From contig CAIYVX010000067.1 of the NCBI GenBank assembly GCA_903929765.1, forward strand, positions 1 through 59,914: 59,914 nt of DNA. Direction: 5' to 3'. Both the position numbers and the translations under genes were made by a program. Source of the DNA: an uncultured Planctomycetia bacterium. GTDB lineage: Bacteria > Planctomycetota > Phycisphaerae > FEN-1346 > JAACEH01. The stretch's first letter is position 1, and the number at the start of each line of letters is the position of its first letter. Shown here in pieces: positions 5,860 to 41,141 of this stretch. Under the pieces are notes generated by a model, which was given only the letters and a program-made list of their open reading frames with translations, was not told the origin of the DNA and ran no database searches.

Positions 5860-5936
5860 CGGACAGGGCAGAGCCCTGTCCCTACGAAACAGCAACAGCA
5901 ACGGCAGGGCAGAGATAAACTCTGCCCCTACGAATA
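5860..5936. repeat. Palindromic repeat family F, two units
   Basis: Two short hairpins in tandem share the ends CAGGGCAGAG and CCCTACGAA. A related unit with GGGACAGGG and CCCTGTCCCTACGAA sits at about 58480-58512. Together they fill the gap between the UROD-type gene and the SGNH gene. Confidence 0.65.
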
Positions 5937-7022
5937 CAATCGCCCCTCGTCGAGCATGGCCAGGTAATTGTCGAGCGGGATGTAGTTGGCGACGGAGTTG
6001 CCGGTGCCGAGGCAGTAGCCGCCGCCGGGCTGGCAGGCGTCGAGCGTTTTGCGGACGCGGGCGCGGATGGCCTTCTCGTCGGAGCGGCAGAGGAAATCGA
6101 CGTCGATGCCGCCGAGAAGCGAGAGGCGCCGGCCGTAGCGGCGCTTCACGTCGCAAACGTCCTCGATGGTGTCCTCGAAGCTGTGCTTGGCGTCGATTTT
6201 CACGTCTTCGATGAGGTCTTCCATGATGTCGGCCATGCAGCCGCAGGAGTGCAGGAGGTAGGGCCGGCCGGCGACGTGCGACCGGGCGGCGAGTTGGCGG
6301 TGGCAGGGCAGGAGGAACTCGCGGGTGTCGGCGGGCGAGATCATGAGGCCGGTCTTGAAACCCAGGTCGTCGGTGCCCCAGATGATTTTGACGCGGTCGA
6401 ATTCGAGCATCCGCTCCAGCATGCGTGAAAAATAGTTTTCCAGTTTCCGGGCGATGGCTTCGACCAGGTCGCGCTGCTCGAAGAGGGCGTAGCAGAGCGT
6501 CTCGTAGCCCATGAACCAGGAGAGGAACTCCATCTGGTGGGCGAAGCCGCCGGAACCGATGATGCACATGTCGTCGGGGAGATTTTTCTGGTACCACTCC
6601 AGTTCGCGGGTGGCGCTGGGCTTGGCGGGATCGGGCCAGGGAAACTTTTCGAACTGCTCCCAGTTGGTGACCGGGCCGACATGCTCGTCGCGGTAGACGC
6701 GGTCGGCCTGGCTCAGGGCGGCGGTGTCCTTAACGGCTTGGCTGCCGAGGCCGGCAAACTCCAGGTCGACCAGGCCGATGCGGACGAAGTCGTAGCCGCA
6801 GAAGCGCTGGACGGCGACGAGCTTTTTCCTCTCATAATCAGGATCGGACTTGCTCTGGCCGCGCGTCAGGTCGAAACGTTCGGCGATAGCGTCGCGGATT
6901 TCCGGGTCCTGGAAGATTTCCGCGAAAAAGACGCGGTTGGGCGTGCCGCGGCGGAGGATATTGTCGACCAGGCCGGGCCAGTCGGGTTTGAATTTTTGTT
7001 CGAGACCTTTGAACTGCGGCAT
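5928..7022 (-). CDS. Uroporphyrinogen decarboxylase-family methyltransferase (MtaA/cmuA-like), paralog 1
   Basis: A 364-residue TIM barrel of the UROD family. Members outside heme synthesis move methyl groups between corrinoid proteins and thiols or folates, using a zinc site. Here HSCGC (His258, Cys260) and Cys337 in GGGYCLGTGNS form the His-x-Cys...Cys zinc pattern of MtaA-type methyltransferases, which argues against true heme-pathway UroD. A perfect GGAGGT lies 7 bases before ATG 7022, so that start is preferred to an in-frame ATG 15 bases upstream. It is closely similar throughout to the gene at 9257. No corrinoid-binding protein gene is near, so its methyl partner is unknown. Confidence 0.85.
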   Translation of the reverse strand: MPQFKGLEQKFKPDWPGLVDNILRRGTPNRVFFAEIFQDPEIRDAIAERFDLTRGQSKSDPDYERKKLVAVQRFCGYDFVRIGLVDLEFAGLGSQAVKDTAALSQADRVYRDEHVGPVTNWEQFEKFPWPDPAKPSATRELEWYQKNLPDDMCIIGSGGFAHQMEFLSWFMGYETLCYALFEQRDLVEAIARKLENYFSRMLERMLEFDRVKIIWGTDDLGFKTGLMISPADTREFLLPCHRQLAARSHVAGRPYLLHSCGCMADIMEDLIEDVKIDAKHSFEDTIEDVCDVKRRYGRRLSLLGGIDVDFLCRSDEKAIRARVRKTLDACQPGGGYCLGTGNSVANYIPLDNYLAMLDEGRLYS

Positions 7023-7112
7023 TGTAGCCACCTCCATTTAAAGACTAATAGCACCAACAGAAAAGGCAAGACGATTGACCTCGTCGTTCAGGTCGTCCCT
7101 GATGTCGGCCTG

Positions 7113-9256: not shown

Positions 9257-10348
9257 CTATGAATAGAGCCGCCCCTCGTCGAGCATGGTCAGGTAATTGT
9301 CGAGCGGGATGTAGTTGGCGACGGAGTTGCCGGTGCCGAAGCAATAACCGCCGCCGCTTTGGCAGGCGTCGAGCGTTTTGCGGACGCGGGCGCGGATGGC
9401 GGCCTCGTCGGAGCGGCAGAGGAAATCAACGTCGATGCCGCCGATGAAGGAGAGGCGTTTGCCGTAGCGGCGCTTCGCCTCGCAGACGTCCTGGATGGTG
9501 TCCTCGAAGCTGTGTTTGGCGTCGATTTTGACGTCTTCGATCAGGTCTTCCATGATGTCGGTCAGACAGCCGCAGGCGTGCAGAAGGTAGGGCCGTCCGG
9601 CGGCATGAGCAGCGGCGGCCAATTGGCGGTGGCAGGGGAGGACGAGCTTCCGCATGTCGTCGGGCGAGATCATGAGGCCGGTTTTGAAGCCCATGTCGTC
9701 GGAACTCCAGACGAGCTTGACGCGGTCGAATTCCAGGAGCCGCTCCTGGCAGACGGCGAAGAACTGTTCCAGCTTCCGGGCGATGGCCTCGACCAGATCG
9801 CGCTGATCGACGAGGGCGAAGCAGAGCGTCTCATAGCCCATGAGCCAACAGAGGAATTCCATCTGATGGCCGTAGCCGCCGAAGCCGCAGATGCACATGT
9901 CGTCGGGGAGATTTTTCTGGTACCACTGGAGTTCGCTGGTGACGGCGGGCCTGGTGGGATCGGGCCAGGGGAACTTTTCAAACTGCTCCCAGTTGGTGAT
10001 CGGTCCGGTGTGCTCGTCGCGATAGGCGCGGTCGCCACGATTCAGCGCAGCGGTGTCTTTGGTGGCGGCGTCGTGGAATTGAAAGTCCAGGTCCATCAGA
10101 GGAACTTGAACATAGTCGTAGCCGCAGAAGCGCTGGACGGCGATGTACTTTTTGCGCTCGAAATCGGGGTCGGACGGATTGAGGCCGCGCGTCAGGTCGA
10201 AACGCTGGGCGATGGCGTTTTTGATTTCCGGATCCTGGAAGAGTTCCATGAAGTAAACGCGATTGGGCGTGCCACGGCGAAGCAGATTGTCGACGAGGCC
10301 GGGCCAGTCGGGCTGGAATTTTTTTTCGAGACCTTTGAACTTCGGCAT
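9257..10348 (-). CDS. Uroporphyrinogen decarboxylase-family methyltransferase (MtaA/cmuA-like), paralog 2
   Basis: A 363-residue paralog of the 5928 gene, similar almost end to end, including the C-terminal CRSDEAAIRARVRKTLDACQ block. The zinc-type pattern is kept: HACGC and the distal Cys in GGGYCFGTGNS. ATG 10348 was chosen because GAAGGG lies just upstream and the protein begins at the conserved MPKFKGLEKKF, as in the paralog; an in-frame start at 10441 would add DNA from a repeat and the promoter. It is the first gene of the minus-strand block and has its own promoter at 10442-10469. Confidence 0.85.
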   Translation of the reverse strand: MPKFKGLEKKFQPDWPGLVDNLLRRGTPNRVYFMELFQDPEIKNAIAQRFDLTRGLNPSDPDFERKKYIAVQRFCGYDYVQVPLMDLDFQFHDAATKDTAALNRGDRAYRDEHTGPITNWEQFEKFPWPDPTRPAVTSELQWYQKNLPDDMCICGFGGYGHQMEFLCWLMGYETLCFALVDQRDLVEAIARKLEQFFAVCQERLLEFDRVKLVWSSDDMGFKTGLMISPDDMRKLVLPCHRQLAAAAHAAGRPYLLHACGCLTDIMEDLIEDVKIDAKHSFEDTIQDVCEAKRRYGKRLSFIGGIDVDFLCRSDEAAIRARVRKTLDACQSGGGYCFGTGNSVANYIPLDNYLTMLDEGRLYS

Positions 10349-10376
10349 AAATTTGCCCTTCATAATCAAGAGCCGC

Positions 10377-10400
10377 GTGGCTGCAAGCAGCCACCCTACA
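10377..10400. repeat. Palindrome related to family D
   Basis: GTGGCTGCAAGCAGCCAC is a perfect palindrome followed by CCTACAC, like the family D element at 23002. It lies in the predicted leader of the paralog-2 methyltransferase mRNA. Confidence 0.5.
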
Positions 10401-10441
10401 CTCTGTCGGATTGGGGCCCGACCTACATAATAGGAGGGCAC

Positions 10442-15691: not shown

Positions 15692-18600
15692 ATGCAGATT
15701 AAGAAGTTGGAACTGTTCGGATTCAAATCTTTCGCCGACCGGACCGAATTCGTGTTTGACCGCGGCGTGACCTGCATCGTCGGACCCAACGGTTGCGGCA
15801 AGAGCAACGTCGTGGACGCGGTGAAGTGGATCCTGGGCGAGCAATCGGCCAAGAGCCTGCGCGGGCAGGAGATGCTCGACGTGGTCTTCAACGGCTCGGC
15901 CAACCGCCATCCGCTGGGCTTTGCCGAGGCGACGCTGACGTTCGACAACACGTCGCGCCGCCTCCCGCTCGACCAGGCCGAGGTGGCCGTGACGCGCCGG
16001 CTCTACCGCTCGGGCGAGAGCGAGTACATGATCAACCGGCAGAGTTGCCGCCTCAAGGACATCCGCGAAATGATGATGGACACCGGGGCGGGCCTCAACG
16101 CCTATTCCCTGGTCGAACAGGGCCGCGTGGAGGTGCTGCTCCAATCCAACCCGCAGGAACGCCGGGCCGTGTTCGAGGAAGCGGCGGGGATATCCAAATA
16201 TAAAGCTAAGAAACGGGAAGCCCTCCGCAAGTTGGAACGGACGGAGCAGAACCTGCTGCGCCTGGGGGACATCATCGAAGAGGTCGAGCGGCGGCTGCGG
16301 TCGGTCAAGTACCAGGCCGGCAAAGCTCGGTCATGGCAGACCTGCAACGACCGCCTCAAGGAACTGCGCACGCAGCACGCCCTGAACGAGTACCACAACC
16401 TGAGCCGGCGGGGCGAAGAACTGACGGGCGAACTGGCAGCGGCGCAGGACGAGCGGACCGGCTTGCAGGCGCAGACGGCCGGGCTGGAGGCCGAGCGGAG
16501 CCGGCTCGATACGGAGCTTTTGGGCCTCGAGGACGAGTTGCGCAGCGTGGACAATCAACTCATGGACGTGCGCGGCCAGATCGGAGCGGCCGAGGACGCC
16601 ATCGCCTTCAATCGGACGCGGATCGACGAATGGTTGCGGACGCAGGAGCGCGACCGCAAGCGCACCGCCGATCTCGACCTTCGCCTGGGTGAACTGGACG
16701 GTCAGATTGCCGGCGAGAGCGAGGCGGCCGGGGCGATTGACGGACGGCTGGCCGTGCTCAAGGCTGAACTGGCCGAAACGGAAAATCAGCTTTTGGCGGC
16801 GCAGCAGGCGGCGCGCGGCACCGTGGCCGACCTGGAGCGGCGCAAGTCGGACATCATGGAGTTGCTCCAGCAGGCCTCGCAGGCCCGCAACGAAATCTCC
16901 AACGCCGATCTGCGGACGGAAAATCTGGCGGCGACGCGAACGCGGCTCCAGCGGCGCCTCGGGGAAATTGCCGAACAACTCGACCGCGTGGGCAAAGAGA
17001 AGGCCGAGACGGAAGCCCGAATCGGCGAACTCGACTCGCGGCTGGACCGCGATAAGAAGAGGCTCCAGGTTAAGCACGAGGAAGCCGAGGCCCTGAACAA
17101 GGAAGCCGAGGGCGTGGCGGCGGAAACGGCGGCGGCCAAGGAATTCCGCTCCGGCCTCGTGTCGCGGCAGGAACTGCTGGCCGACCTGGAACAGCGCGGC
17201 GAAGGGCTGGAACAGGGCGTCCGTCGCGTGCTGGAACTTTCGCAGAACGGCGTGTTCCCCGGCATTCGCGGCATCGTGGCTTCGCTCTTCAACGTCGATA
17301 CGCGCTACGCCATGCTGATTGAGGCGGCGCTGGGCGAGGCGGAACAGTCGATTGTTATCTCGCGGCGGCAGGACGTGGTGGCGGGGCTGGAGACGCTGGA
17401 AGAGGCGCTGGAGGGCCGGGCGGGATTCTTGCCGCTGGATTCTTTGCGTAGCGGGGTGCCACACTTTGTCCCGGCGGGCTTTATCGCCGGGCAAAGTGTG
17501 TCTTCGGACGGCACACCTTGCCCCCAAACAGCCGGGGGACAAGGTGTGGCACCCACATTCGAACCTTTAGACGTGTCGCAATATCCCGGCGTGGTGGCCC
17601 GGGCGGCGGACCTCGTGCAGACCGAACCTGACCTGCGGCCGGCGGTGGAATGCCTGCTCGGCCGGACACTGCTGGTCAACGACCTGGCCACGGCGCTGCA
17701 ATTGGCTTCCGGGCCGCTGGCGGCGCTGCGGTTTGTCACGATGGCCGGCGAAGTGGTCGAACCCGACGGCCGGCTGAGCCTCGGGCGCGTGATGGCCAAG
17801 GCCGGCCTCATCAGCCGCCACAGCGAGCGGCGGACGCTCGACACGCAACTGGCCGAGGTACAATCGCGGATCGTCGTCCTGACGGCGCAAGGCGAGGACG
17901 TGTTGCAGCGCATTCATGGCCTCGACGACGAGCAGAAGGAACTCCGCTCGGTCATTTACGACACTTCGACGGCGCGGGTCGATCTGGCGGCGCAGTTGCG
18001 GCGGCTCGACGACACGGCGGCGGCGGTGCGGGCCGAGCAGCCGCTCCTCAATTCCGAAATTGCCGAGGCGGACGCCCAGACGGCGCAGTTGGTCGCCCGG
18101 CGCGGGGAGTTCGACGCGCGGCTCTCGAGCCTTGAGTCCGAGAGCGTTCGCCGGCGCGAGGAAGTGGAAAACCTGGGCCGGCAGCTTTCGCTCTCCGAGG
18201 CCGACCGGCACAAGATCGAAGATCGCCGGACGCAGCAGCGCGTCGACGTGGCGACGGTTGAGGAACAGCGGCGCTCGGTGGTGGACCGGTTGGCCCATCT
18301 GCGCGACACTCGCGACGATGCGGCGCGGCAGCGGCGCGATGCGGCCGAGGAACTGGCCCGCTGCGCTTCGCGGCTGGCCGAGGCGGAACGGACGATTCTG
18401 CGGCACGAGTCGGTCATCGCCGACCTCTTCCTGAAGAAGGAAGCTGCGGCGGCGCGGTCGAGAGAATTGGCTCAGGCCCGGACCGCCGGGCGCGAGCAGG
18501 TGGCGGCTCTGGCGGAGCAGGTGCACACGCTGGCCGAGCAGCTTCATGCGGCCGAGGAAAAGTTCCACGCCCTCGACATTGAGGCCCGCGAGTGCCGGCT

Positions 18601-19420: not shown

Positions 19421-19470
19421 TCACCCCTCTCCCTTGGGAGAGGGTGGCACGAAGTGCCGGGTGAGGGGTT
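19421..19470. repeat. Palindromic repeat family A
   Basis: CACCCCTCTCCCTTGGGAGA begins the element and GGCACGAAGTGCCGGGTGAG follows its middle: two hairpins (CTCTCCCTTGGGAGAG and GGCACGAAGTGCC) within outer arms CACCCCT and GTGAGGGG. It sits 10 bases after the smc stop. Confidence 0.85.
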
Positions 19471-19516
19471 GAGGCCAATGACCTCCCAAATTGAATGGTG
19501 ATGGTCGAGGATTGCA

Positions 19517-20136: not shown

Positions 20137-22632
20137 ATGACCGACTTTCCGAAGGAACTTCCGCGCAGCTTGCGGCTGCCGCTGGTGCCGCTGCGCGAAT
20201 TGGTGGTGTTTCCGCACCTGGTGGTGCCGCTGATGCTGGCGCGCGAGGCCAGCCTGCGGGCGGTGCGGCGCGCGACCGCCGGCGACGGGCTGGTGCTGCT
20301 CCTCAGTCAGCTTGACGGGGCGGTCGAAGCGCCGGGGCTGGGCGATTTTTACAAGGTCGGGGCCGTGGCCCGCGTGCTGCAACTTTTCCGCGTGACCGAC
20401 GAGACGAACAAGGTGATCGTCGAAGCGGTGGCCCGGGCTCGCGTCAAACGCATCGCCGAGACGGCGGGGGAATATCGCGCCGCCGTGGAAATCATTCCCG
20501 AAATCGGCCGCGAAAAAGCCCCGGAGGCCGAGGCCCTGGTCCGCACCGTCCGGGGTCAGTTCTACGCCTATGCCGCCGCCAGCATGAGCGTGCCCGACAA
20601 CATTAACGAACTGGTCGGCATCATCGACTCGCCGGGCCATCTGGCCGACACGGTGGCCGCCTACGTCAAGCTGCCGCTGGACACCAAGCAGGAATTGCTC
20701 TCCGAGCCGGACGCCGAAAAGCGGCTCTCGCGGCTCACGGCGCTATTGGAACACGAACTGAAAATCCTGAAGCTTCAGCACGACATCACCGACCGCGTGC
20801 GCGGGCGGATTCAGAAATCGCAGAAGGATTATTTTCTGCGCGAGCAGATGCGGGCCATCGAGGAAGAACTCGGCCAGGGCGATCCGACGGCCAAGCCGCA
20901 CGGCGAACTGGAGGCGGCCATCGAGAAGGCCGAGATGCCCGAGCCGGTCCTGGCCGTGGCCCGCCGCGAACTGCAGAAGCTCCGCCGCTCGCAGCCGCTC
21001 TCGCCGCAATCGGCGGTGATCGAGGAATATCTCCATTGGCTGGCCGACCTGCCGTGGCAGAAAAAGACCGAGGACAATCTCGACCTGCAGCACGCGCGTA
21101 AAATTCTCGACGCGGAGCATTACGGGCTGGAAGATCCGAAGCAGCGGATTCTGGAATACCTCGCGGTCAAGCGGCTGACGGCCGACTCGCAGCACGAGCC
21201 GATTCTCTGCCTGATCGGCCCGCCGGGGGTGGGCAAGACCAGTCTGGCTCGGTCGGTGGCCCTGGCCCTGGGGCGGAAGTTTGTGCGGAAGTCCCTGGGC
21301 GGCGTGCGCGACGAGGCGGAAATTCGCGGCCATCGCCGGACCTACGTCGGGGCCATGCCGGGACGGATTATTCAGAGCCTGCGCAAGGCCGGCAGCCGCA
21401 ACCCGGTGTTCCTGCTGGACGAGATCGACAAGCTGGCGGCCGATTTCCGGGGCGATCCGGCGGCGGCGCTGCTGGAAGTTTTGGACCCGGACGAGAACAA
21501 CACTTTCAGCGACCATTATCTGGAGGTGGAGTTCGACCTGTCGGACGTGCTCTTCATCACGACGGCGAACCTGGCCTCGGCCATTCCGCCGGTGCTGCGC
21601 GACCGCATGGAAGTGATCGAACTGGGCGGCTACACGCTGGCCGAGAAACTCCAGATCGCCCGGCGGCACCTCCTGCCGCGCCAGTTCAAGGCCCACGGCC
21701 TGACCGGCCGCGACTTAAAATTCCCGGCGGCGGTGCTGACGCAACTGATCGAAGAATATACGAGCGAAGCGGGCCTGCGGACGCTGAACAAGCGGCTGGC
21801 GGACGTTTGCCGCAAGGTGGCGGCGAAGCTGGCGGAGAAAGTGCCGCTTCTTCACCCCTCTCCCCTTGAGGGAGAGGGTAGGGTGAGGGGTCGGAAGGCC
21901 GGAAAACTCGCCCTTCGCCGAAAAACTCTCATTCTCACTGCCGCCGATCTGGCGAAGCATCTCGGCCCGCCGCCGTTCCGGCAGGAAGTGCGGGCGCGCG
22001 GGCGCGAGGTCGGGGCGGCCACGGGGCTGGCCTGGACCGAGGCCGGCGGGCGAACCATGACCGTCGAAGCCTCGTGGATGCGCGGCAAGGGCCGCATCAC
22101 CCTGACCGGGCAACTGGGCGACGTGATGCAGGAATCGGCCCGCGCCGCCGTGACCTACGTCCGCTCGCACGCGGAAGAGTTCGCTCTGGACGCCCGCGTT
22201 TTCGATTCGATTGACCTGCACCTGCACGTGCCCGAGGGGGCGACGCCCAAGGACGGTCCGTCGGCGGGGCTGGCGATGGTCGCAGCCGTGGTTTCCGCCC
22301 TGACCGGCAAACCCGTTCGCCGCGACGTGGCCACGACCGGCGAGATCACCCTTCGCGGCGACGTACTGGCCATCGGGGGCCTCAAAGAAAAAGTTTTAGC
22401 CGCCCATCGCCAGGGCATCCGCACCATCGTCGTGCCGGAATCGAACCGCGTCGACCTGCCCAAGATTCCCGAGGAAGTGAGCCGGATTACCGATTTCATT
22501 TTCGTCCGCCAGGCCTCCGAAGCCCTGGCCGTCCTCGTCCCCGGCGCCCCGGCCGTCTCCCCCTCGCCGCGGGCCTTGCCGGCCATCGCCGCCGATGCTC
22601 CGACGGAGTTGCCGCCGGAGGCGGCACATTGA
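20137..22632 (+). CDS. lon: ATP-dependent Lon protease
   Basis: An 831-residue Lon: N-terminal substrate-binding domain (residues about 10-210), AAA+ module with Walker A GPPGVGKT (near 361-368) and Walker B VFLLDEIDK, then the protease domain with the Ser-Lys dyad, Ser709 in PKDGPSAG and Lys752 in GGLKEKV. It degrades misfolded and regulatory proteins in the cytoplasm. Between the AAA lid and the protease domain, after RKVAAKLAEKVPL, sits a stretch (HPSPLEGEGRVRG) encoded by a palindromic repeat of family A, 21852-21891. The Lys/Arg-rich residues after it look like extra linker, and the domains on both sides are intact. Confidence 0.97.
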   Translation: MTDFPKELPRSLRLPLVPLRELVVFPHLVVPLMLAREASLRAVRRATAGDGLVLLLSQLDGAVEAPGLGDFYKVGAVARVLQLFRVTDETNKVIVEAVARARVKRIAETAGEYRAAVEIIPEIGREKAPEAEALVRTVRGQFYAYAAASMSVPDNINELVGIIDSPGHLADTVAAYVKLPLDTKQELLSEPDAEKRLSRLTALLEHELKILKLQHDITDRVRGRIQKSQKDYFLREQMRAIEEELGQGDPTAKPHGELEAAIEKAEMPEPVLAVARRELQKLRRSQPLSPQSAVIEEYLHWLADLPWQKKTEDNLDLQHARKILDAEHYGLEDPKQRILEYLAVKRLTADSQHEPILCLIGPPGVGKTSLARSVALALGRKFVRKSLGGVRDEAEIRGHRRTYVGAMPGRIIQSLRKAGSRNPVFLLDEIDKLAADFRGDPAAALLEVLDPDENNTFSDHYLEVEFDLSDVLFITTANLASAIPPVLRDRMEVIELGGYTLAEKLQIARRHLLPRQFKAHGLTGRDLKFPAAVLTQLIEEYTSEAGLRTLNKRLADVCRKVAAKLAEKVPLLHPSPLEGEGRVRGRKAGKLALRRKTLILTAADLAKHLGPPPFRQEVRARGREVGAATGLAWTEAGGRTMTVEASWMRGKGRITLTGQLGDVMQESARAAVTYVRSHAEEFALDARVFDSIDLHLHVPEGATPKDGPSAGLAMVAAVVSALTGKPVRRDVATTGEITLRGDVLAIGGLKEKVLAAHRQGIRTIVVPESNRVDLPKIPEEVSRITDFIFVRQASEALAVLVPGAPAVSPSPRALPAIAADAPTELPPEAAH
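21852..21891. repeat. Palindromic repeat family A, in frame inside lon
   Basis: TCACCCCTCTCCCCTTGAGG and GGTAGGGTGAGGGG are the outer parts of the hairpin seen between genes at 19421 and 24231. Here the copy is translated as part of Lon, in the linker before the protease domain. Confidence 0.88.
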
Positions 22633-24008: not shown

Positions 24009-24063
24009 GGGCGGTCTCCGCTAGAGCACAGGGCGAAAGGATATGGTAAGTCGGGCGGGGGGA

Positions 24064-24098
24064 AAATGCAAAATGCAAAATTAAAAATGAAAAATTAG
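24064..24098. repeat. AT-rich repeat family G
   Basis: AAAATGCAAAATGCAAAATT followed by AAAAATGAAAAATTA. Similar strings are at 29454-29486 and 41111-41141, always just outside a gene. Confidence 0.65.
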
Positions 24099-24119
24099 GG
24101 ACCACCGCAGAAACGGAAT

Positions 24120-24287: not shown

Positions 24288-25124
24288 TCACGGCAGGCGG
24301 AAGAGTTCGCGGGCGTTGGCACAGGTGCGGCGGCGGACTTCGTTGAGGTCGAGGGTGTAGAGGTCGGCCAGGGCGGCGCAGACGTGGGCGACCAGGGCGG
24401 GTTCGTTGGGTTCGTCCTTGCCCTTTTTGCGGGCCTGGCGGCGCGCGGTGCGGACTGGTTCGGGCGTGCAGTAAGGGGCGTCGGTTTCGACGAGGAGCCG
24501 GTCCAGGGGGATGCGGCGGGCGACCTCGCGGACGTTCTCGGAGTTGGCGTAGGTGACGATGCCGGTGAGGCCGATGTAGAAGCCGCGCTCCAGGGCGGCC
24601 TCGGCCAGTTCCCAGGTGTCGGTGAAACAGTGGAACACGCCGCGCGGCATCGCGCCGCGGGATTCTTCGTCGAGAATGGCGATGGTGTCCTGCGCCGCGT
24701 CGCGGGTGTGGACGACCAGCGGCAAATTCTTTTCCAGGGCCAGCCGGATGCCGCGGCGGAAGACTTCGCGCTGCTCGGCCCGGGGGCTGAGGTCGTAATG
24801 ATAATCGAGGCCGAACTCGCCGAGGGCGACGACTTCCGGCTCATCGGCCAGGCGGGCGAGGAGTTCCCAATCGGGCGGCGTGACCTGGTGGGCGTTGTGC
24901 GGATGGAAGCCTAGGGAGGTGTAGACGCGCGGTCCGCCGGCGATGGTGTTGGCCCGGCGGGTCTGTGCGGCGACGACGGCGTTGGAGGCCGGTTCGGTGG
25001 CGACGTTGACGATGATTGAGACGCCGGCTTCGACGGCGCGGGCCAGGACGGCGTCGAGCTGGGCTTCGAGTTCGGGATAGAACAGGTGAGCGTGGCTGTC
25101 GCAGATGGGTTCGAGGTTGGGCAT
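24288..25124 (-). CDS. TatD family hydrolase/deoxyribonuclease
   Basis: A 278-residue TIM-barrel metal hydrolase. Conserved motifs in order: DSHAHLF (metal-binding His pair), TSLGFHPHNAH, ALGEFGLDYHYD (Glu), PLVVHTRDA, GVFHCFTD and LLVETDAPYC (catalytic Asp). TatD proteins are 3'-5' exonucleases linked to DNA repair and turnover. The start lies 5 bases after the stop of the isomerase gene, so the two are probably co-transcribed with yraN. One oddity is a Lys/Arg-rich insert (RTARRQARKKGKDEPNE) after the TDAPY motif, where others have a shorter loop. Confidence 0.93.
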   Translation of the reverse strand: MPNLEPICDSHAHLFYPELEAQLDAVLARAVEAGVSIIVNVATEPASNAVVAAQTRRANTIAGGPRVYTSLGFHPHNAHQVTPPDWELLARLADEPEVVALGEFGLDYHYDLSPRAEQREVFRRGIRLALEKNLPLVVHTRDAAQDTIAILDEESRGAMPRGVFHCFTDTWELAEAALERGFYIGLTGIVTYANSENVREVARRIPLDRLLVETDAPYCTPEPVRTARRQARKKGKDEPNEPALVAHVCAALADLYTLDLNEVRRRTCANARELFRLP

Positions 25125-29446: not shown

Positions 29447-29453
29447 ACGGCAA

Positions 29454-29486
29454 TTAAAAATTAAAAATTCAAAATGAAAAATTGAA
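29454..29486. repeat. AT-rich repeat family G
   Basis: ATTAAAAATTAAAAATTCAA followed by AATGAAAAATTG. Related strings are at 24064 and 41111. Confidence 0.65.
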
Positions 29487-29492
29487 AGCGAC

Positions 29493-29561: not shown

Positions 29562-29666
29562 GGGTGCCACACCCTGGCCCGGCGGGCTGTTTCGCCGGGC
29601 AGGGTGTGTCTTCGTTCGGCACACCTTGCCCCCATACTGACCGGGCGAGACAAGGTGTGTCACCCT
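29562..29666. repeat. Palindromic repeat family C (two hairpins), intergenic
   Basis: Begins GGGTGCCACACCCTGG and ends CAAGGTGTGTCACCC. Same two-stem plan as the smc copy, but the first stem reads CACCCTG/CAGGGTG instead of CACTTTG/CAAAGTG, so both arms changed together. Confidence 0.88.
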
Positions 29667-32768: not shown

Positions 32769-34925
32769 TCAGCGATATTCCGCCACGACCATCTTCAGGG
32801 CGTCCAGGTTCTTGAGCGTGGCCCGGACCACGCCGCCACGGCCGCTGGTGAATTTGAGTGTTTTGCCGTCTGGTACCACGCGCAGCCGGGCAAAACGCTT
32901 GCCCGCCAGCGGGCGCAGCGTAAACGGCACTTCGGCCATCGGCACCGGCGGCAACAGGGGTGGATAGTTCAGGAACCCGGCCACCATCCGGTTCTGCTCC
33001 GCCTGATTGCTTACCGACATCCAGACCGCCGGATGCGTGTCGGCCGAGGCGCTCTGGCGGTCGCCGAGCAACTCGCGCAGCAACAGCAGGAGCAGGCGAT
33101 TGTTGGCGGCGCAATCGACGACTTCGAGGTCGGCGGCGGAGTAAATGGCTCGGCCCTTGCCGAAGCGGTTGCTGACCAGGGCCGGGGTTTTGGTGTCGCG
33201 CCACGGCGGCGCACTGTGGATGCTGAGCCAGTTCTGCTCGAAGACGTTGCCCCACTCTTTGGCGCAAGGCAGGGTGAGGGTGGCCAGCACCTGGCCCTCG
33301 GCCCGGTCGGCCAGGCGCAGCGAGCCTTCGCCCTGAGTTGCTTTACCCCAACCGTTACGAGCGATAAAACTCAGACAGGTTTGAGGTTCGATGGCCTGGA
33401 GCAGCGGGCCCTTTCGCGGCTTGAGAAAGCTGACTTCGCCCAGGTCGTCGGCGCCGAAGTGGCAGCCGAAAACATCGGCCAGCATGAAGTCGTCGTGACG
33501 GACGCCCCGGGTTTCCGTGAGCGAGGTGTAGCGGCTGGCGTAAATCCGTCCCCCGCGGCGGACATATTCGCGGATGGCGGCCGTCTCTTCGGCATCCATC
33601 CGCAGGACGTTGGGCAGGACGACGACCTTGTAGCGGTCGAGGTCGGGTAGTTGCTTGCGCGTGATGACGCCGAAGGGGATGTGGGCTTGATGGAGCACGC
33701 GACAGGCGCCCCGGACGGCTTTCTTGTGCGAATAGGTGGTCTGCCAGGGCGTTTCGGTGACCGCCCGGCCGTTCTCGGCGAAGTCCAGGTTCGAATCGCT
33801 GCTCCAGTAGACGGCCACGTCTTCGACCGGCGTGCCGCCGAAGAACGGCTCGTAGCCGGCCAGTTCGCGGTTGATGTCGTGGATCAGGGCGTAGGGCTTG
33901 GCATTGGCGGTGCCGTCGGGATTGATGGCGTCGATAAAAGTCATGGCCGCGCCGAGCAGGGCCGAGGTCAGGGCGGTCATCCGCATTTCCTCGACGCTCT
34001 TGTTCTCCTCGTGATCCTGGAGGGCGGCACAACGGGTGGTCATGAATTCAACAGGCCGGTGGTTCGAGAGGTTGGACATGAGCTTGCTGTTGATCAACTG
34101 TTGCAACTGGTCGTCATAGAAGTCGGCCCCCAGGAAGTCGCTGGCCACGGTCGACCGGAACGACAGTGCCCAGCCCCAGCCCAGGGTGGCACAGGCGAAG
34201 TTGTGGTAAACGGTAATTCCGGGGCTGAGACGCTTGGCGTGAGCCGTCATTTCCGTGGCGAACTCGATCATCCACCGTTCGCGGGCCTCCTGGAAGCGGC
34301 ACCAGGTGGGCGAGAACCAGTCGATGGTCCGGGGAATCTCGCTCCCAGTCTCGGCCTTGTAGCGGGCCTGGCACTGGTCGCAGACGCAGAGCGTCGGCCA
34401 GAAGGTCATGTCGTAAAAGAGGCCGTCGAACTGGTAATTGCTTAGCAACTCCTCGGTCTGGGCCTGGGCAAAAGCCCGGTACCCCGGCTGATTCGGACAG
34501 CAGGAGCCGTAGCGGGAGCCGGCGAACGGCTTGTCGGCGTCGCCGGCGGTCGTCCCGGGCGGGACGGGCCGCCACTCGGGGTGTTCGAGGAAGGCCCAGT
34601 TGTTGAAGACCAACGAATAGTAGGCGCAGGCGTCGATCTTCGCTTTGCGCAGCAGACCGAGCATCTCCCCGACGATGTCGCGCCCGCCCAGGCCCGCGTG
34701 CATCTTGCCGATCTTGGTCGGCCAATAGCAGAGGCCGGTGTGCGCCTGGGTGTAGAACATGACCGAAGTCAGGCCGGCTTGTTTGTACAGTTTGACCATC
34801 GCCGCCGGATCGTATTTCGACAACAGTTTCGGATCCCAGTCGGTAATGTGCATGTCGACCAGCATCCGGCGGTAGCTGCGCTGGAACCAGGGGCGGGTGT
34901 CGGGTTTATTTTTCAGTGCCGTCAT
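32769..34925 (-). CDS. GHL6-type glycosyl hydrolase-like protein with beta-galactosidase trimerisation-like domain, paralog 1
   Basis: A 718-residue cytosolic protein (no signal peptide). Residues about 10-330 form a TIM-barrel domain like hypothetical glycosyl hydrolase family 6: YDPAAMVKLYKQAGLTSVMF, THGLC-like AHTGLCYWPTKIGKMH, PNQPGYRAF, and DGLFYDMTFWPTLCVCDQC with paired Cys. A glutamine-amidotransferase-like beta-galactosidase trimerisation domain follows (VVVLPNVLRMDAEETAAIREYVRRGG ... GRIYASRYTSLTETRG). The C-terminal beta domain is unassigned. The activity is unproven; alpha-L-fucosidase- or beta-galactosidase-like roles are possible. GGAGGT lies 5 bases before ATG 34925. It is a close paralog of the next gene upstream. 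Confidence 0.75.
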   Translation of the reverse strand: MTALKNKPDTRPWFQRSYRRMLVDMHITDWDPKLLSKYDPAAMVKLYKQAGLTSVMFYTQAHTGLCYWPTKIGKMHAGLGGRDIVGEMLGLLRKAKIDACAYYSLVFNNWAFLEHPEWRPVPPGTTAGDADKPFAGSRYGSCCPNQPGYRAFAQAQTEELLSNYQFDGLFYDMTFWPTLCVCDQCQARYKAETGSEIPRTIDWFSPTWCRFQEARERWMIEFATEMTAHAKRLSPGITVYHNFACATLGWGWALSFRSTVASDFLGADFYDDQLQQLINSKLMSNLSNHRPVEFMTTRCAALQDHEENKSVEEMRMTALTSALLGAAMTFIDAINPDGTANAKPYALIHDINRELAGYEPFFGGTPVEDVAVYWSSDSNLDFAENGRAVTETPWQTTYSHKKAVRGACRVLHQAHIPFGVITRKQLPDLDRYKVVVLPNVLRMDAEETAAIREYVRRGGRIYASRYTSLTETRGVRHDDFMLADVFGCHFGADDLGEVSFLKPRKGPLLQAIEPQTCLSFIARNGWGKATQGEGSLRLADRAEGQVLATLTLPCAKEWGNVFEQNWLSIHSAPPWRDTKTPALVSNRFGKGRAIYSAADLEVVDCAANNRLLLLLLRELLGDRQSASADTHPAVWMSVSNQAEQNRMVAGFLNYPPLLPPVPMAEVPFTLRPLAGKRFARLRVVPDGKTLKFTSGRGGVVRATLKNLDALKMVVAEYR

Positions 34926-35145: not shown

Positions 35146-37311
35146 TCAGCGGTATTCCGCCACGACCATCTTCAGGGCCTCCAGGTTCTTGAGCGTGGCC
35201 CGGATGACGCCGCCACGGCCGCTGGTGAATTTGAGCGGCTTGCCGTCCGGCACAGTTCGCAGCCGCGCGAAACGCCGGCCCGCCGGCGGGCGCAGCGTAA
35301 AGGGCACTTCGGCCATCGGCACCGGCGGCAACTGGGTGGGATAATTGAGGAACCCGGCGACGATACGATTCTGCTCCGCCTGGTCGGTCACGTTCATCCA
35401 GACCGCCGGATGCGTGTCGGCCGAGGCGCTCTGGCGGTCGCCGAGCAAATCGCGCAGCAACAAGAGGAGCAGGCGATTGTTGGCCTGGCAGTCCATGACC
35501 TCGATATCGGCAGCGCAGTAAATGGCCTGGCCTTTGCCGAAGCGGTTGCTGACGAGGGTCGGCGTCGGCGTGTCGCGCCACGGCGGCGCACTGTGGATGC
35601 TGAGCCAGTTCTGCTCGAAGATGTTGCCCCATTCTTTGGCGCAGGGCAGCGTAAGGGTGGCCAGCACCTGGCCCTCGGCCCGGTCGGCCAGACGCAGCGT
35701 CCCGACGCCCGGCTCGGCCCGGTCGCGGACGTGGCGGAAGCTCAGGCAGGTTTGCGGGTCGATCGCCTTCAGGAGCCGGCCTGGTCGCGGCTTGAGAAAG
35801 GTCACCTCGCCCAGATCGTCGGCGGCGAAGTGGCCGCCGAAAACGTCGGCCAGCATGAAGTCGTCGTGGCGGACGCCCCGCGTTTCCGTGAGCGATGTGT
35901 AGCGGCTGGCGTAAATCTTTCCCCCGCGGCGGACGTATTCGCGGAAGGCAGCCACCTCTTCGGCGTCCATCCGCAGGACGTTCGGCAGCACGACCACCTT
36001 ATAGCGGTCCAACTCCGCCAGTTGTTTTCGCGTGATGATGCCGAACGGCACGTGGGCCTGCTGGAGCACGCGGCAGAAGCCGCGGATCGATTGTTTGTGG
36101 GGATAGTTGAAGCCCCAGAGCTGGGCCTCGGCCAGGGGCCGACCGTTCTCGGCAAAGTCCATTTTCGAGTCGTCGCTGAAGTAGATGGCCACGTCCTCGA
36201 CCGGCGTGCCGCCCAGGAACGGCTCGTATTCAGCGAGTTCGCGGTAGATGTCGCGGATCAGGTCGTAGCGTTTGGGATTAACCGTGCCGTCGGGGTTGAT
36301 GGCGTCGATGAAGGTCATGGCGGCGCCGAACAGAGCGGAGGTCAGGGCGGTCAGTCGCAACTCTTCGTCGCTCTTGGCGGACTCGTGGTCCTGAAGGTTG
36401 AGGCAGAGGCTGGTCGAGAATTCGACCGGCTGATTCTGCGACAGGCCGACCAGGAACTTGCTGGTCATGGCCTGTTGCGGCAGGTCGCCGTAGCAGTCGA
36501 GGGAGAGGAAATCGTTGGCCTCGGTGGCCCGGAACGACAGGCCCAGGGTCCAATTGAACAGGGCCGTGGCGAAGTTGTGGTTGATGGAAATTCCGGGGCG
36601 GAGGTTTTTGCACTTGGCCGAAAGTTCCAGGGCGAACTCGGTCATCCAACGTACGCGGGCTTCCTGGAACCGGCACCACTCGGGCGAGAACCAGTCAATG
36701 GTCCGGGGAATCGCCGCGCCGGCCTCGGCCTGGAACCGGGCCTGGCATTGGTCGCAGACGCAAATGTCCGGCCAGAAGGTCATGTCGTAAAACACTCCGT
36801 CGAAGTCGTAGCCGCCGAGGAACTCCTCGGTCTGGGCCAGGGCGAAGGCCCGGTAGCCGGGCTGGTTCGGACAGCAGACGCCGTAGCGTCCGCCGGCGAA
36901 CTTGCCGGCCTCAAGCCCGCCGGGCGGGTCGGCGGCGGGAACCATTCGCCATTCGGGGTGTTCCAGGAAGGCCCAATTGTTGTAGATCACCGAATAGTAG
37001 GCGCAGGCATCCATCTTCGCCTGGCGCAGCAGCCCGAGCATCTCGCCGACGACGTCTCGCCCGACGAGGCCCGCGTGCATCTTGCCGGTCTTCGTCGGCC
37101 AATGGCAAAGCCCGGTGTGGGCCTGGGTGTAGAACATGACCGAAGTCAGGCCGGCTTTTTTGAACAGCTTGACCATCGCCGCCGGATCGTATTTCGACAT
37201 CAGCTTCGGATCCCAGTCGGCAATGTGCATGTCCACCAGCATCCGGCGATAGCCGCGCTGAAACCAGGGCCGCGCGTCGGGCGAATTTTTCTGTTTCGAC
37301 AACTTATTCAT
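35146..37311 (-). CDS. GHL6-type glycosyl hydrolase-like protein with beta-galactosidase trimerisation-like domain, paralog 2
   Basis: A 721-residue paralog of the 32769 gene with the same domain order: TIM barrel with AHTGLCHWPTKTGKMH and DGVFYDMTFWPDICVCDQC, amidotransferase-like trimerisation domain, and C-terminal beta domain. The C-terminal third is almost identical in both (WLSIHSAPPWRDT, LLLLLLRDLLGDRQSASADT). ATG 37311 overlaps the 3' end of the cupin gene by 8 bases and has GGAG 7 bases upstream, inside that gene. Cupin and glycosidase are therefore coupled. Substrate unknown; likely cytosolic processing of imported oligosaccharides. Confidence 0.75.
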   Translation of the reverse strand: MNKLSKQKNSPDARPWFQRGYRRMLVDMHIADWDPKLMSKYDPAAMVKLFKKAGLTSVMFYTQAHTGLCHWPTKTGKMHAGLVGRDVVGEMLGLLRQAKMDACAYYSVIYNNWAFLEHPEWRMVPAADPPGGLEAGKFAGGRYGVCCPNQPGYRAFALAQTEEFLGGYDFDGVFYDMTFWPDICVCDQCQARFQAEAGAAIPRTIDWFSPEWCRFQEARVRWMTEFALELSAKCKNLRPGISINHNFATALFNWTLGLSFRATEANDFLSLDCYGDLPQQAMTSKFLVGLSQNQPVEFSTSLCLNLQDHESAKSDEELRLTALTSALFGAAMTFIDAINPDGTVNPKRYDLIRDIYRELAEYEPFLGGTPVEDVAIYFSDDSKMDFAENGRPLAEAQLWGFNYPHKQSIRGFCRVLQQAHVPFGIITRKQLAELDRYKVVVLPNVLRMDAEEVAAFREYVRRGGKIYASRYTSLTETRGVRHDDFMLADVFGGHFAADDLGEVTFLKPRPGRLLKAIDPQTCLSFRHVRDRAEPGVGTLRLADRAEGQVLATLTLPCAKEWGNIFEQNWLSIHSAPPWRDTPTPTLVSNRFGKGQAIYCAADIEVMDCQANNRLLLLLLRDLLGDRQSASADTHPAVWMNVTDQAEQNRIVAGFLNYPTQLPPVPMAEVPFTLRPPAGRRFARLRTVPDGKPLKFTSGRGGVIRATLKNLEALKMVVAEYR

Positions 37312-38569
37312 CCAAATTCTCCAATTCAGGGTTTTCCGGGCCAAAGTGTTTGAGCATGACTATCGGGTCGGTCGCCGACGGGTTGACGATTTTCACGCCC
37401 TGCCGCGCCGCCGCTTCGCTGACGAAATATTCGTCGTGCGTCATCTGGCCGAAACGGATCTGCGTCGGCGTCTCGATGTCCCAGACACCCAGGCGGCCGT
37501 GGCCCTGCATCATAATCAGTCCGTAGGCCCCGCCGTCGCGGATGGTCACGGTGCGACCGGGCAGGACCGTCAGTTCCTTGGCGCTGAAATCCGGCGAGCG
37601 GTAGCAGATCCAGTTTTCGACGTAGCCGGCGGCGGTCATTTCCTTCACCGCTCGGACGGGCTTCGGGACCATGAAGTTGCGCTCGACGAAATGGTCGTCC
37701 ACGTTCTTTTCCCAATCGAGTACCTCGATCAGGTAGTCGAAATCGCCCAGGCGGTTCTTGGGCGTGTTTTTCCAGAGCAACTCTTCGGGAATAATCGCAT
37801 CGCCCACCAGCGACTGGAACATCCCGAAGACGTCCGAGGCTTTCTGCGGCTCGTAGGTGCAGAGGCTCCCCGGGGCGTGCAGCACGCCCGGCGGGACGTT
37901 CCAGCCCGTGCCCGGTTGCAGCCGGTAGGCCCGCGAGAGGTTGGTGAGCTTGTTGTCGCCCTTGGTGAAATCTTTCAGGCACTGGCGGACCTGCTCTTTG
38001 GTCGTGCCAGGCTCCAGGCCGAAGAAGGTATAGGGAAAGTCGCCGCCGTGATTGTTGACCTGCGTCGGGAAAAAATAAGCCTCGGGTTTGCCAAGCTGGC
38101 CGACCAGGGCGGCATGGCGGTCGCCGTGGTGAATGTGGTGCGGCAGAGGGCCTTTATTGTCGAAAAATTTCGAGTACATCGGCCAGCGTTTGTGCTGGTT
38201 CCAGATACGGTCGCCGATGAGCTGGCCTTTGAGCGTCGCCACGGCGTCGCGCAGGAGCACCTGTTCGGTGCGTCCGCCGCCCTCGACGACGATGAAGCTC
38301 AGGCCCTCGTTGGGACTGGTCAGCGGGCCGTTGTCGGCGGGCGTGGTGGAGGCGAACCAGCGTTCGTCGATGCCGCCGCGCACGCCGCCCAGGGCGTAAT
38401 AGTCGTCCGGGTGCAGCTTGATCCGCCGGCCAGGGACGCAGAAGGAGCGCGGCACCCAGGCCGGGGCCAGGCGGACGATGCCCGCGCCCTGGTCCAGAGC
38501 CATCGCCGACAGCGCTGCGCCCGAGACTTTTTTCGCAGACACCTTGTTTGAAGGCACTTTCCTGACCAT
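37304..38569 (-). CDS. Mannose-6-phosphate isomerase-like cupin protein
   Basis: A 421-residue cupin protein resembling class I phosphomannose isomerases. Metal-site-like residues are in PLPHHIHHGDRHAALVGQLG and EAYFFPTQVN, and a second histidine patch is in GTGWNVPPGVLHAPGSLCTY. The C-terminal domain is another cupin barrel (LTVLPGRTVTIRDGGAYGLI). It may interconvert hexose phosphates or bind a sugar. ATG 38569 was chosen because GGAGG lies 4-5 bases upstream; the in-frame extension to 38740 covers its promoter. It is coupled to the downstream glycosidase-like gene. Confidence 0.75.
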   Translation of the reverse strand: MVRKVPSNKVSAKKVSGAALSAMALDQGAGIVRLAPAWVPRSFCVPGRRIKLHPDDYYALGGVRGGIDERWFASTTPADNGPLTSPNEGLSFIVVEGGGRTEQVLLRDAVATLKGQLIGDRIWNQHKRWPMYSKFFDNKGPLPHHIHHGDRHAALVGQLGKPEAYFFPTQVNNHGGDFPYTFFGLEPGTTKEQVRQCLKDFTKGDNKLTNLSRAYRLQPGTGWNVPPGVLHAPGSLCTYEPQKASDVFGMFQSLVGDAIIPEELLWKNTPKNRLGDFDYLIEVLDWEKNVDDHFVERNFMVPKPVRAVKEMTAAGYVENWICYRSPDFSAKELTVLPGRTVTIRDGGAYGLIMMQGHGRLGVWDIETPTQIRFGQMTHDEYFVSEAAARQGVKIVNPSATDPIVMLKHFGPENPELENLDE

Positions 38570-39291: not shown

Positions 39292-41121
39292 ATGTGGCAG
39301 CGCTTGCGCCGGATGTGGCAACTTCTCGACGATCAGCGGCCGCGCTACCTGGCCTCCCTGGCGGCCATGGGGCTGGCCGTCTTCTTCGATTACCTGATTT
39401 TCCTGACCATCATGGTCACAGTCGATCTGGCCCTGGCCCTGCCGGCGGTCGCAGGCGCCGAGAACGCCTCGCCGGTCCGCGACGCCGTGAAATGGTTCGT
39501 CCTCCAGTGCGGCGGGGCCGAGACCTTGCGGCAGCACCTCTGGATTGCCGCAGCCGCGGTGCTGGTACTGGCTTTGCTGCGCGGCCTGGCCATCTATCTG
39601 CGCGGACGCTGGTCGAGCATTGCCACGGAGATCATCTGCCGCCGGCTCCGCGACCGGCTCTACAACCATCTCCAGCGCGTGCCCTGCGCCTATTTCGATC
39701 AGGCCGACACCGGCGACCTGGTCCAGCGCTGCACCTCCGACGTCGAAACGGTGCGCAGCTTCCTGACCACGCAGGTGGTCGACATTGGCCGCGCCGTTTT
39801 CATGCTTCTGCTCTCGCTCGTGGCCCTGCCGCTCACAAACTGGCGTCTCGCAATATGGGCCCTGGCCCTGGTACCGTTCATTTTCATTTACACCATCGTC
39901 TTTTTCTCCAAAGCCCGCGCCGCCTTCAAGCGGCAGGACGAGGCCGAAGGAGCCATGACCGACCGCATTCAGGAAAACCTGACCGGCATCCGCGTGGTCC
40001 GGGCCTTTGCCCGGCAGGATTATGAATGCCGGCAGTTCGCCGTGAAGAACGCCGCCTACCGCGACCTGGGCTTCAAGCTGGTCAAGCTGATGGCCTGGTA
40101 CTATCCCCTGGCGGACTTTCTCGCCGGGACGCAGCAGGCCCTGGTCATCGTCTTCGGCGGCTGGCAACTGGCCTCGGGGACGGTCCAGGTCGGCGAGTTC
40201 TTCCTGTTCCTGTTCTACATAAGCTTTCTGCTCTGGCCGGTGCGGCAGATGGGCCGCACGCTGGTCGAGGTGGGCAAGGCCTTCGTCTCGATGGACCGCC
40301 TGCACGAAATTCTGGGCCAGGCCGAGGAGCCGACCGGAGCGGCCCTGCCGGCGGCGCGGCTCCAGGGGCGGATCGCCTTCGACGGCGTGACCTTCGCTCA
40401 TGGGACGAAGGAAATTCTGCACGGCGTGTCGTTCTCCGCCGAACCCGGACAGACCGTGGCCCTGCTCGGCCCGTCCGGCTCGGGCAAATCGACGCTGATC
40501 AACCTCCTCCTGAAATTCTACGACTACACCGGCGGCTCGATCACTCTTGACGGCTGCGAGTTGCGCACCCTCGATCCCCGCGCCGTCCGCTCGCAAATCG
40601 GCGTGGTCATGCAGGAACCGTTTCTCTATTCGCGCAGTCTGCGCGAGAACATCAAGCTCGGCCGCTGGGCGGCGCACGATCAGGAGATGGAGGAGGCCTC
40701 GGCCTCGGCGGCCATTCACGAGACGATCACCGGTTTCGACCACGGCTACGACACCCTGGTCGGCGAGCGCGGCATCACCCTCTCCGGCGGCCAACGACAG
40801 CGCGTCGCCCTGGCTCGGGCCATGCTCAAGGACCCGCCCATCCTGATTCTCGACGATGCCCTCAGCGCCGTCGACACGGGCACGGAAACGCTGATTCTGG
40901 AGGCCCTCCAGCGCCGTCGCGGTCGCCACACCACGCTGGTCATCGCCCACCGGCTTTCGACGCTGATGCGGGCCGACCGGATTGTCGTTTTAGAGGCAGG
41001 CCGCGTCACCGAAGCCGGCACGCACGCCGAGTTGCTCGCCCGCGACGGACTCTACCGCCGGCTCTGGGAAATTCAGAGTTCGCTGGAAGATGATTTGCGG
41101 AAAGAAGAAGTTAAAAATTAA
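39292..41121 (+). CDS. ABC exporter subunit 1 (degenerate catalytic site)
   Basis: A 609-residue half-transporter: about six transmembrane helices (residues 20-310), then a nucleotide-binding domain. Motifs: Walker A GPSGSGKST (393-401), canonical signature LSGGQRQR (from Leu497), and Walker B ILILDDALSAVD, where the catalytic Glu is replaced by Asp522. In heterodimeric exporters one subunit carries this change. The next gene has the complementary pattern, so the two likely form one asymmetric exporter for lipids, peptides or drugs. ATG 39292 (MWQRLRRMW) has GGAG 9 bases upstream. Confidence 0.9.
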   Translation: MWQRLRRMWQLLDDQRPRYLASLAAMGLAVFFDYLIFLTIMVTVDLALALPAVAGAENASPVRDAVKWFVLQCGGAETLRQHLWIAAAAVLVLALLRGLAIYLRGRWSSIATEIICRRLRDRLYNHLQRVPCAYFDQADTGDLVQRCTSDVETVRSFLTTQVVDIGRAVFMLLLSLVALPLTNWRLAIWALALVPFIFIYTIVFFSKARAAFKRQDEAEGAMTDRIQENLTGIRVVRAFARQDYECRQFAVKNAAYRDLGFKLVKLMAWYYPLADFLAGTQQALVIVFGGWQLASGTVQVGEFFLFLFYISFLLWPVRQMGRTLVEVGKAFVSMDRLHEILGQAEEPTGAALPAARLQGRIAFDGVTFAHGTKEILHGVSFSAEPGQTVALLGPSGSGKSTLINLLLKFYDYTGGSITLDGCELRTLDPRAVRSQIGVVMQEPFLYSRSLRENIKLGRWAAHDQEMEEASASAAIHETITGFDHGYDTLVGERGITLSGGQRQRVALARAMLKDPPILILDDALSAVDTGTETLILEALQRRRGRHTTLVIAHRLSTLMRADRIVVLEAGRVTEAGTHAELLARDGLYRRLWEIQSSLEDDLRKEEVKN

Positions 41122-41141
41122 AAATGAAAAATTAAAAATGT
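41111..41141. repeat. AT-rich repeat family G
   Basis: AGTTAAAAATTAAAAATGAA followed by AAATTAAAAATG, overlapping the end of ABC subunit 1. Its last codons (KEEVKN) lie in it. Confidence 0.65.

Follow-up and report, generated by a model that had tools for sequence, protein, structure and literature searches.

A dispersed repeat, identified from its sequence as the intrastrand triplex motif, is read in frame within the Lon protease gene of a Phycisphaerae bacterium

The window, i.e. the whole stretch of 59,914 nucleotides of DNA that was analysed, belongs to a Phycisphaerae MAG with a genome of 3.83 Mb. It carries a complete gene for the ATP-dependent protease Lon, in which the LON substrate-binding, AAA, Lon_lid and Lon_C domains were recognized (Pfam on ORF 20137-22632), and a short repeat is translated within this gene. 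The following features of the window were used in the analysis:

20137 to 22632, + strand: lon, ATP-dependent protease, host gene of the repeat (complete ORF, 831 aa)
21844 to 21918, + strand: extra coding DNA in lon relative to compact Lon proteins, about 75 nt or about 25 residues, ends approximate (alignment and AlphaFold model)
21847 to 21855, + strand: GCTTCTTCAC-type leader, corresponding to the left flank that is conserved in the family (profiled over 101 copies)
21853 to 21891, + strand: in-frame repeat core in lon, residues 573-585, read as HPSPLEGEGRVRG (sequence and translation)
21856 to 21864, + strand: first arm of the lon copy, CCCTCTCCC
21870 to 21878, + strand: second arm, GGGAGAGGG
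21881 to 21889, + strand: third arm, GGGTGAGGG
21890 to 21917, + strand: possible right tail (GTCGGAAGGCCGGAAAACTCGCCC), similar to GTTGAGGCCNNNAACCTCC of subtype A1, boundary uncertain
19421 to 19473, + strand: intergenic A1 copy with an extra hairpin (TGGCACGAAGTGCC), directly 3′ of the smc stop codon
24231 to 24280, − strand: intergenic A1 copy with the same extra hairpin, just downstream of a minus-strand gene ending at 24288
17454 to 17537, + strand: unrelated 84-bp repeat, in frame inside the SMC hinge (85% over 84 nt compared with a second copy in the window, 29562-29645)

In the original prediction a hairpin repeat had been described as translated in frame within Lon at 21852-21891. 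The end of this span was confirmed, while its start was placed one base early, as the codons begin at 21853. The core DNA (CAC CCC TCT CCC CTT GAG GGA GAG GGT AGG GTG AGG GGT) has the layout CCCTCTCCC-CTTGA-GGGAGAGGG-TA-GGGTGAGGG, and the basic stretch RKAGKLALRRK comes right after the repeat-encoded residues, as had been noticed before. In 646 kb of the genome, the lon copy matched other copies with 94-98% identity over 43-49 nt, one such match reaching 98% over 43 nt (E about 5e-14). An equal score for its upstream flank was obtained with 2 of 300 random genomic stretches; likewise, 2 of 300 random stretches resembled the A1 tails as well as the right tail of the lon copy does, a correspondence which is far weaker than that of the core. 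The folding of the lon insert is unexceptional in comparison with shuffled sequences (z of -1.16 for RNA and of -1.66 for DNA), because the composition itself is G-rich, and the case for the insert thus stands on repeat identity and not on hairpin energy.

Genome-wide, 264 copies of the core pattern CCCTCTCCC-N0..12-GGGAGAGGG were found, of which the lon copy is a near-perfect representative, and the full three-arm motif occurs 240 times; both patterns gave no match when read backwards. The anatomy of the family was derived from 101 oriented copies and comprises a left leader CTTCTTCAC, the hairpin CCCTCTCCC-TT(G..)-GGGAGAGGG, a spacer, the third arm GGGTGAGGG and a tail. The spacer preceding the third arm is TA in subtype A2, while in subtype A1 it measures 14-18 nt and forms a further small hairpin of its own, e.g. 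TGGCCCTTCAGGGCC. Most A1 tails consist of GTTGAGGCCNNNAACCTCC, and those of A2 begin with TGCACCTGTT or TGTTG. The lon copy combines an A2 spacer with a GGGGT end and a tail that is only modestly A1-like. It had been stated that the hairpin within lon is the one found between genes at 19421 and 24231. These two copies are indeed related and intergenic, but they are not of the lon subtype: both belong to A1, and their extra hairpin TGGCACGAAGTGCC is absent from the lon copy.

Among 61 genomes (the genome studied and relatives), 24 contain the three-arm motif, the genome studied having by far the most copies and the sister only 8. For distant genomes a two-arm hairpin pattern was dropped in favour of the three-arm pattern, as it matches other hairpins too (e.g. 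in genome G030). Several features of the surroundings of the copies were also recorded. CTT/GTT/CTG triplet tracts ending in CTTCTTCAC often precede the copies (e.g. L096, L126, L131), and copies occur together with their flanks in direct tandem at a spacing of about 60-100 nt (L092:3500-3720; L098:4168-4260), unlike the copies of genomes G004 and G059, which form inverted pairs. Seven-base tandem repeats (AAAAATT/AAAAATG, TTAAGCC, TGAGGAC, TTGGATA) are frequent in intergenic gaps, often beside copies of the repeat (flanks of e.g. L131, L110 and L122), and in the window they lie at 24061-24100, 29448-29487 and 41098-41137.

By its sequence, the repeat family was identified as the intrastrand triplex motif (TM), which is defined as CCCTCTCCC-loop-GGGAGAGGG-loop-GGGTGAGGG (Holder et al. 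2015, PMC4666352). The same three arms are present in the same order, near-identical copies are numerous per genome, and in the lon copy and subtype A2 the loops are short. The TM arm order CCCTCNCCC / GGGNGAGGG / GGGNGAGGG on one strand was found in the lon copy and in the 240 genomic copies. The loops of the lon copy, with 5 and 2 nt, lie inside the 1-6 nt of ITxF and outside the strict second N3 of the TMECO consensus (N3-6, N3); a duplex hairpin is predicted for this copy and a triplex is putative. Apart from loop and end bases, the lon copy is identical to E. coli TMECO no. 2, CCCTCTCCCTTGAGGGAGAGGGTTAGGGTGAGGGT (compared with PMC4666352), and a search with the lon copy gave similar places in 5,045 of 5,426 E. 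coli genomes, with no annotated feature beneath the matches listed. In addition, CCCTCTCCCXX(X)GGGAGAGGG has been noted in Enterobacter sp. 638 (PMC2869309). The family deviates from the published TM by the small hairpin that A1 has after arm 2 and before arm 3, in a spacer whose 14-18 nt exceed the published loop limit, and by the conserved flanks CTTCTTCAC ... GTTGAGGCC. All 23 TM copies of E. coli MG1655 are intergenic and have no strand bias (Holder et al. 2015, PMC4666352); this is a reported property outside the definition of the motif, and the genome studied departs from it by about 14% of the sampled copies, which lie inside genes and in frame.

The distribution over coding and intergenic DNA, a count which the original prediction had suggested, was determined in a sample of 646 kb consisting of stretches around listed copies and a few arbitrary contig starts, with coding sequences called by a gene model that is based on codon usage and was trained on this sample, and not taken from a curated annotation. 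In this sample, 82% of which is coding, 16 of 114 copies (14%) are in frame inside predicted coding sequences, in about 13 genes and in several reading frames; 97 copies are intergenic, 14 gene-internal, 2 near C-termini and 1 overlaps a gene end. Genes thus contain far fewer copies than their share of the DNA would suggest, although roughly one copy in seven lies within one. Besides Lon, the hosts include UvrA (two adjacent copies), PriA, the asparagine synthase AsnB, cytochrome b, a TauE permease, a BcrAD/DUF2229 activase (three copies), a GreA-domain protein, a HEAT-repeat protein, a sigma-factor-like protein and the N-terminal part of GrpE. The insert is flanked or spanned by Pfam domains in one and the same frame in Lon, PriA, UvrA, AsnB, cytochrome b and TauE. 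Most copies are read as PSPxGEG, others as SSPLSPGRG, NPSPGPxGPPSPKGEG or PSPYPLPSRERGEE. In the activase gene (L090:2198-6850, − strand, 1551 codons) the three copies belong to two subtypes and are read in two frames.

Of the six reading frames, only some are free of stops in the consensus A1 and A2 elements. Due to this limit and to the rule that the added length has to be a multiple of three, most insertions into genes should be removed. The strong depletion within genes speaks for survivors that are tolerated and not for a targeting of genes. The leader was found changed at TTCAC in copies read in the frame in which TTCAC would give TGA; this change was set aside as evidence, because a stop-bearing copy would not count as intragenic. 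The TM identity, the two subtypes and the strong depletion go beyond what had been noticed before.

The products of two host genes were compared with their counterparts in the sister, the uvrA gene being located as follows:

L091:6341-9436, − strand: uvrA of the genome studied, with in-frame TM repeats

At its two repeats UvrA is 49 residues longer than the sister protein, and PriA is about 27 residues longer at its single one; the sister proteins contain no inserts. In the comparison with a solved UvrA (2r6f), 66 residues stand opposite 6. On the basis of these alignments, the inserts of UvrA and PriA are lineage-specific gains. Together with the about 13 host genes, they agree with the earlier suggestion of a general process and not a one-off event. 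In other TM-bearing genomes, intragenic loci amount to 1 of about 30 in G059 and 0 of about 30 in G004. The G059 copy again lies in uvrA (L193/L273), at a different site and read as LNVFLPLPPGEGRGEGARQTG, and among 18 TM-bearing genomes G059 is the only one, besides the genome studied, with TM in uvrA. This is suggestive of uvrA being a recurrent host in separate lineages.

The Lon insert itself was examined in an alignment of 35 rows from the sister, other Phycisphaerae and Planctomycetota, Aminicenantes and Acidobacteriota, which represent 33 distinct homologues (L061 is the L032 contig and L066 the L037 contig). Conservation of the repeat-encoded residues in distant Lon proteins lacking the repeat DNA had been named as the observation that would speak against a repeat origin; HPSPLEGEGRVRG was absent from all 33 distinct homologues. 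The comparison of linker lengths, which had also been proposed, revealed that the loop at the insert site varies in length among the aligned proteins. Compact Lon proteins have a short turn at this site (e.g. AEGKARCRTIT), and Lon of the genome studied has about 25 residues more. The loop of the sister Lon (72% identity) is a different one, rich in Arg/Ala; it exceeds the compact form by about 18 residues and falls short of the loop studied by about 7. The sister loop being already long, the loop was variable beforehand, and the residues derived from the repeat are confined to the genome studied. A clean insertion event is not visible in Lon, as the sister loop is unrelated in sequence and the net difference is only about 7 residues.

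The insert had been assigned to the linker between the AAA lid and the protease domain, and this position was upheld and refined to the loop past the last AAA-lid helix and ahead of the strand leading into the protease part. In solved Lon chains, homology breaks between query residues 568 and 605. The AlphaFold model of Lon, which was built from 15 sequences and with a mean pLDDT of 78 and a pTM of 0.49 allows local statements only, retains the helix 548-567, has residues 570-594 as coil with pLDDT below 50 and resumes with a strand at 598-599. According to this prediction, the insert is probably a disordered loop, Pro/Gly/Glu-rich at first and then Arg/Lys-rich. Lon most likely still works with the insert, and the insert would be neutral.

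In-frame palindromic repeats have precedents. Rickettsia palindromic elements (RPE) are such repeats (PMC10969869), and the repeat studied resembles them in lying in frame in conserved genes of varied, here predicted, function, where it is apparently tolerated (PMC10969869, PMC3733652). RPE are about 150 bp long, comprise several families, some of them CGTC-tagged, and belong to another phylum, while the repeat studied has no CGTC; this comparison relies on the description given in reviews. In-frame copies of tagged REPs have been described from several phyla, Verrucomicrobia being one of them; uvrA is one of the host genes and was named as REP host in two further organisms by Di Nocera et al. 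2013 (PMC3733652). As with intragenic REPs (GTAG/CGTC, PMC3733652), short hairpins occur chiefly between genes, a minority is in frame and uvrA recurs. Unlike REPs, the repeat has a third purine arm; at the three Y1 loci read, of eight Y1_Tnp matches, no linked RAYT gene was found. An unpaired GTAG/CGTC terminal tag is absent from the 101 copies, whose conserved ends are CTTCTTCAC and GTTGAGGCC or TGCACCTGTT/TGTTG; the string GTAG occurs in A2 only, between arms 2 and 3. MITEs are likewise short, non-coding and dispersed, and their in-frame fusions are on record (PMC10969869); unlike for MITEs, a scan of all offsets in the flanks of the 101 copies gave no target-site duplication above noise. 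No published report of TM copies translated inside genes was found in the open-access literature. While the TM motif and in-gene palindromes are known, translated TM copies thus appear to be new.

Chance resemblance of GC-rich DNA for a Pro/Gly/Arg-rich Lon loop to an intergenic hairpin can practically be dismissed. The variable length of the loop and the unexceptional hairpin stability would be compatible with it, but it is refuted by copy number and by the length of the match (43 nt at 98%), and the reversed pattern is missing genome-wide while the same event is seen in other genes. A primary role of the repeat as transcription terminator or RNA-stabilising hairpin, with a merely fortuitous overlap with genes, is extremely unlikely: a hairpin is predicted and the two intergenic window copies are situated just downstream of stop codons, but intergenic copies (16 convergent, 16 divergent and 51 unidirectional, compared with 19, 21 and 60% of intergenic bases) have no convergent bias and are similarly distant from 3′ and 5′ gene ends, long genes contain copies in their middle that are read through, and the four Rfam matches are all below gathering thresholds. 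A regulatory role is not supported by the copy positions. Lon proteins bind DNA, and the basic stretch directly after the repeat residues as well as the extended, Arg-rich loop of the sister Lon could be taken to mean that the acidic/proline and basic segments form a selected regulatory or DNA-binding loop, for which the repeat was the raw material. This is considered very unlikely, as the residues are the coding output of the repeat, alike in unrelated proteins (PSPSGEG, PSPLGEG), lack conservation in relatives and are predicted to be disordered.

The high copy number, near-identity and lineage-specific presence indicate that the repeat was copied into new places, and we infer that new copies are generated when a mobile or template-copied repeat inserts. 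Spread in trans by a Y1 transposase (IS200/IS605-like, RAYT-type), mechanistically equal to that of REPs, would be a possible mover within this explanation and not an alternative to it. Fold-back single-strand structures are the usual substrate of Y1/RAYT transposases, the genome has eight Y1_Tnp matches, and RAYTs have been proposed as mobilisers of REPs (PMC3733652). Nevertheless, this mover is judged rather unlikely: the conserved ends have no consistent GTAG or CGTC tag, the repeat is absent within the 4 kb taken at three own Y1 loci (of the eight Y1 matches), many Y1-rich genomes lack the repeat, and the repeat-bearing genomes G009, G018 and G047 have no Y1 match. Among the transposase genes checked, none is flanked by the repeat.

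The repeat in lon is quite probably a dispersing TM copy which entered the gene in its own lineage and survived as a tolerated, translated loop. TM would spread through genomes as a short, non-coding and non-autonomous repeat, and one copy would have entered lon in the lineage studied. Its survival would have been permitted by a net added length that is a multiple of three (about 75 nt), by at least one stop-free frame of the motif per orientation (here ...HPSPLEGEGRVRG...) and by a landing place on the AAA lid, in a loop whose length varies. Insertion followed by purging of damaging copies may then account for the about 12 further host genes and for the depletion in genes, the survivors being those that add a multiple of 3 nt, keep the frame open and are positioned in loops or between domains. 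A more far-reaching version, in which TM is a recurrent source of new loops, stop-free in both orientations, with a portable P-S-P-x-G-E-G insert in dozens of housekeeping proteins and with uvrA hit in separate lineages via a link between triplex DNA and excision repair, seems distinctly unlikely.

A second repeat family inside a second conserved gene, which had also been noted in advance, was verified as the 84-bp repeat at 17454-17537 in SMC. In this protein Pfam SMC_hinge covers residues 526-676, i.e. 151 residues for 116 model positions. The pattern of this family is GGGTGCCACAC...GTGTGTCTTCGG...GCACACC, and related stretches were found in six other sampled genome stretches. The window also contains two tandem gene duplications (32769-34925 / 35146-37344 and 5928-7037 / 9257-10441), in which blocks have about 80-90% DNA identity.

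TM occurs across phyla, and its copies in E. coli have been described as intergenic. Pro/Gly/Glu-rich loops in Lon, UvrA and PriA of such genomes may be repeat-derived and should be interpreted with caution as functional signatures. With the copies described here, protein-coding palindromes would extend from Rickettsia and classical REPs to a motif able to form triplex DNA, which is putative here. Moreover, in-gene copies represent polarised events, absent from the sister and present in the lineage studied, and could be used to establish where the element begins and ends, the length that it inserts and its mobility.
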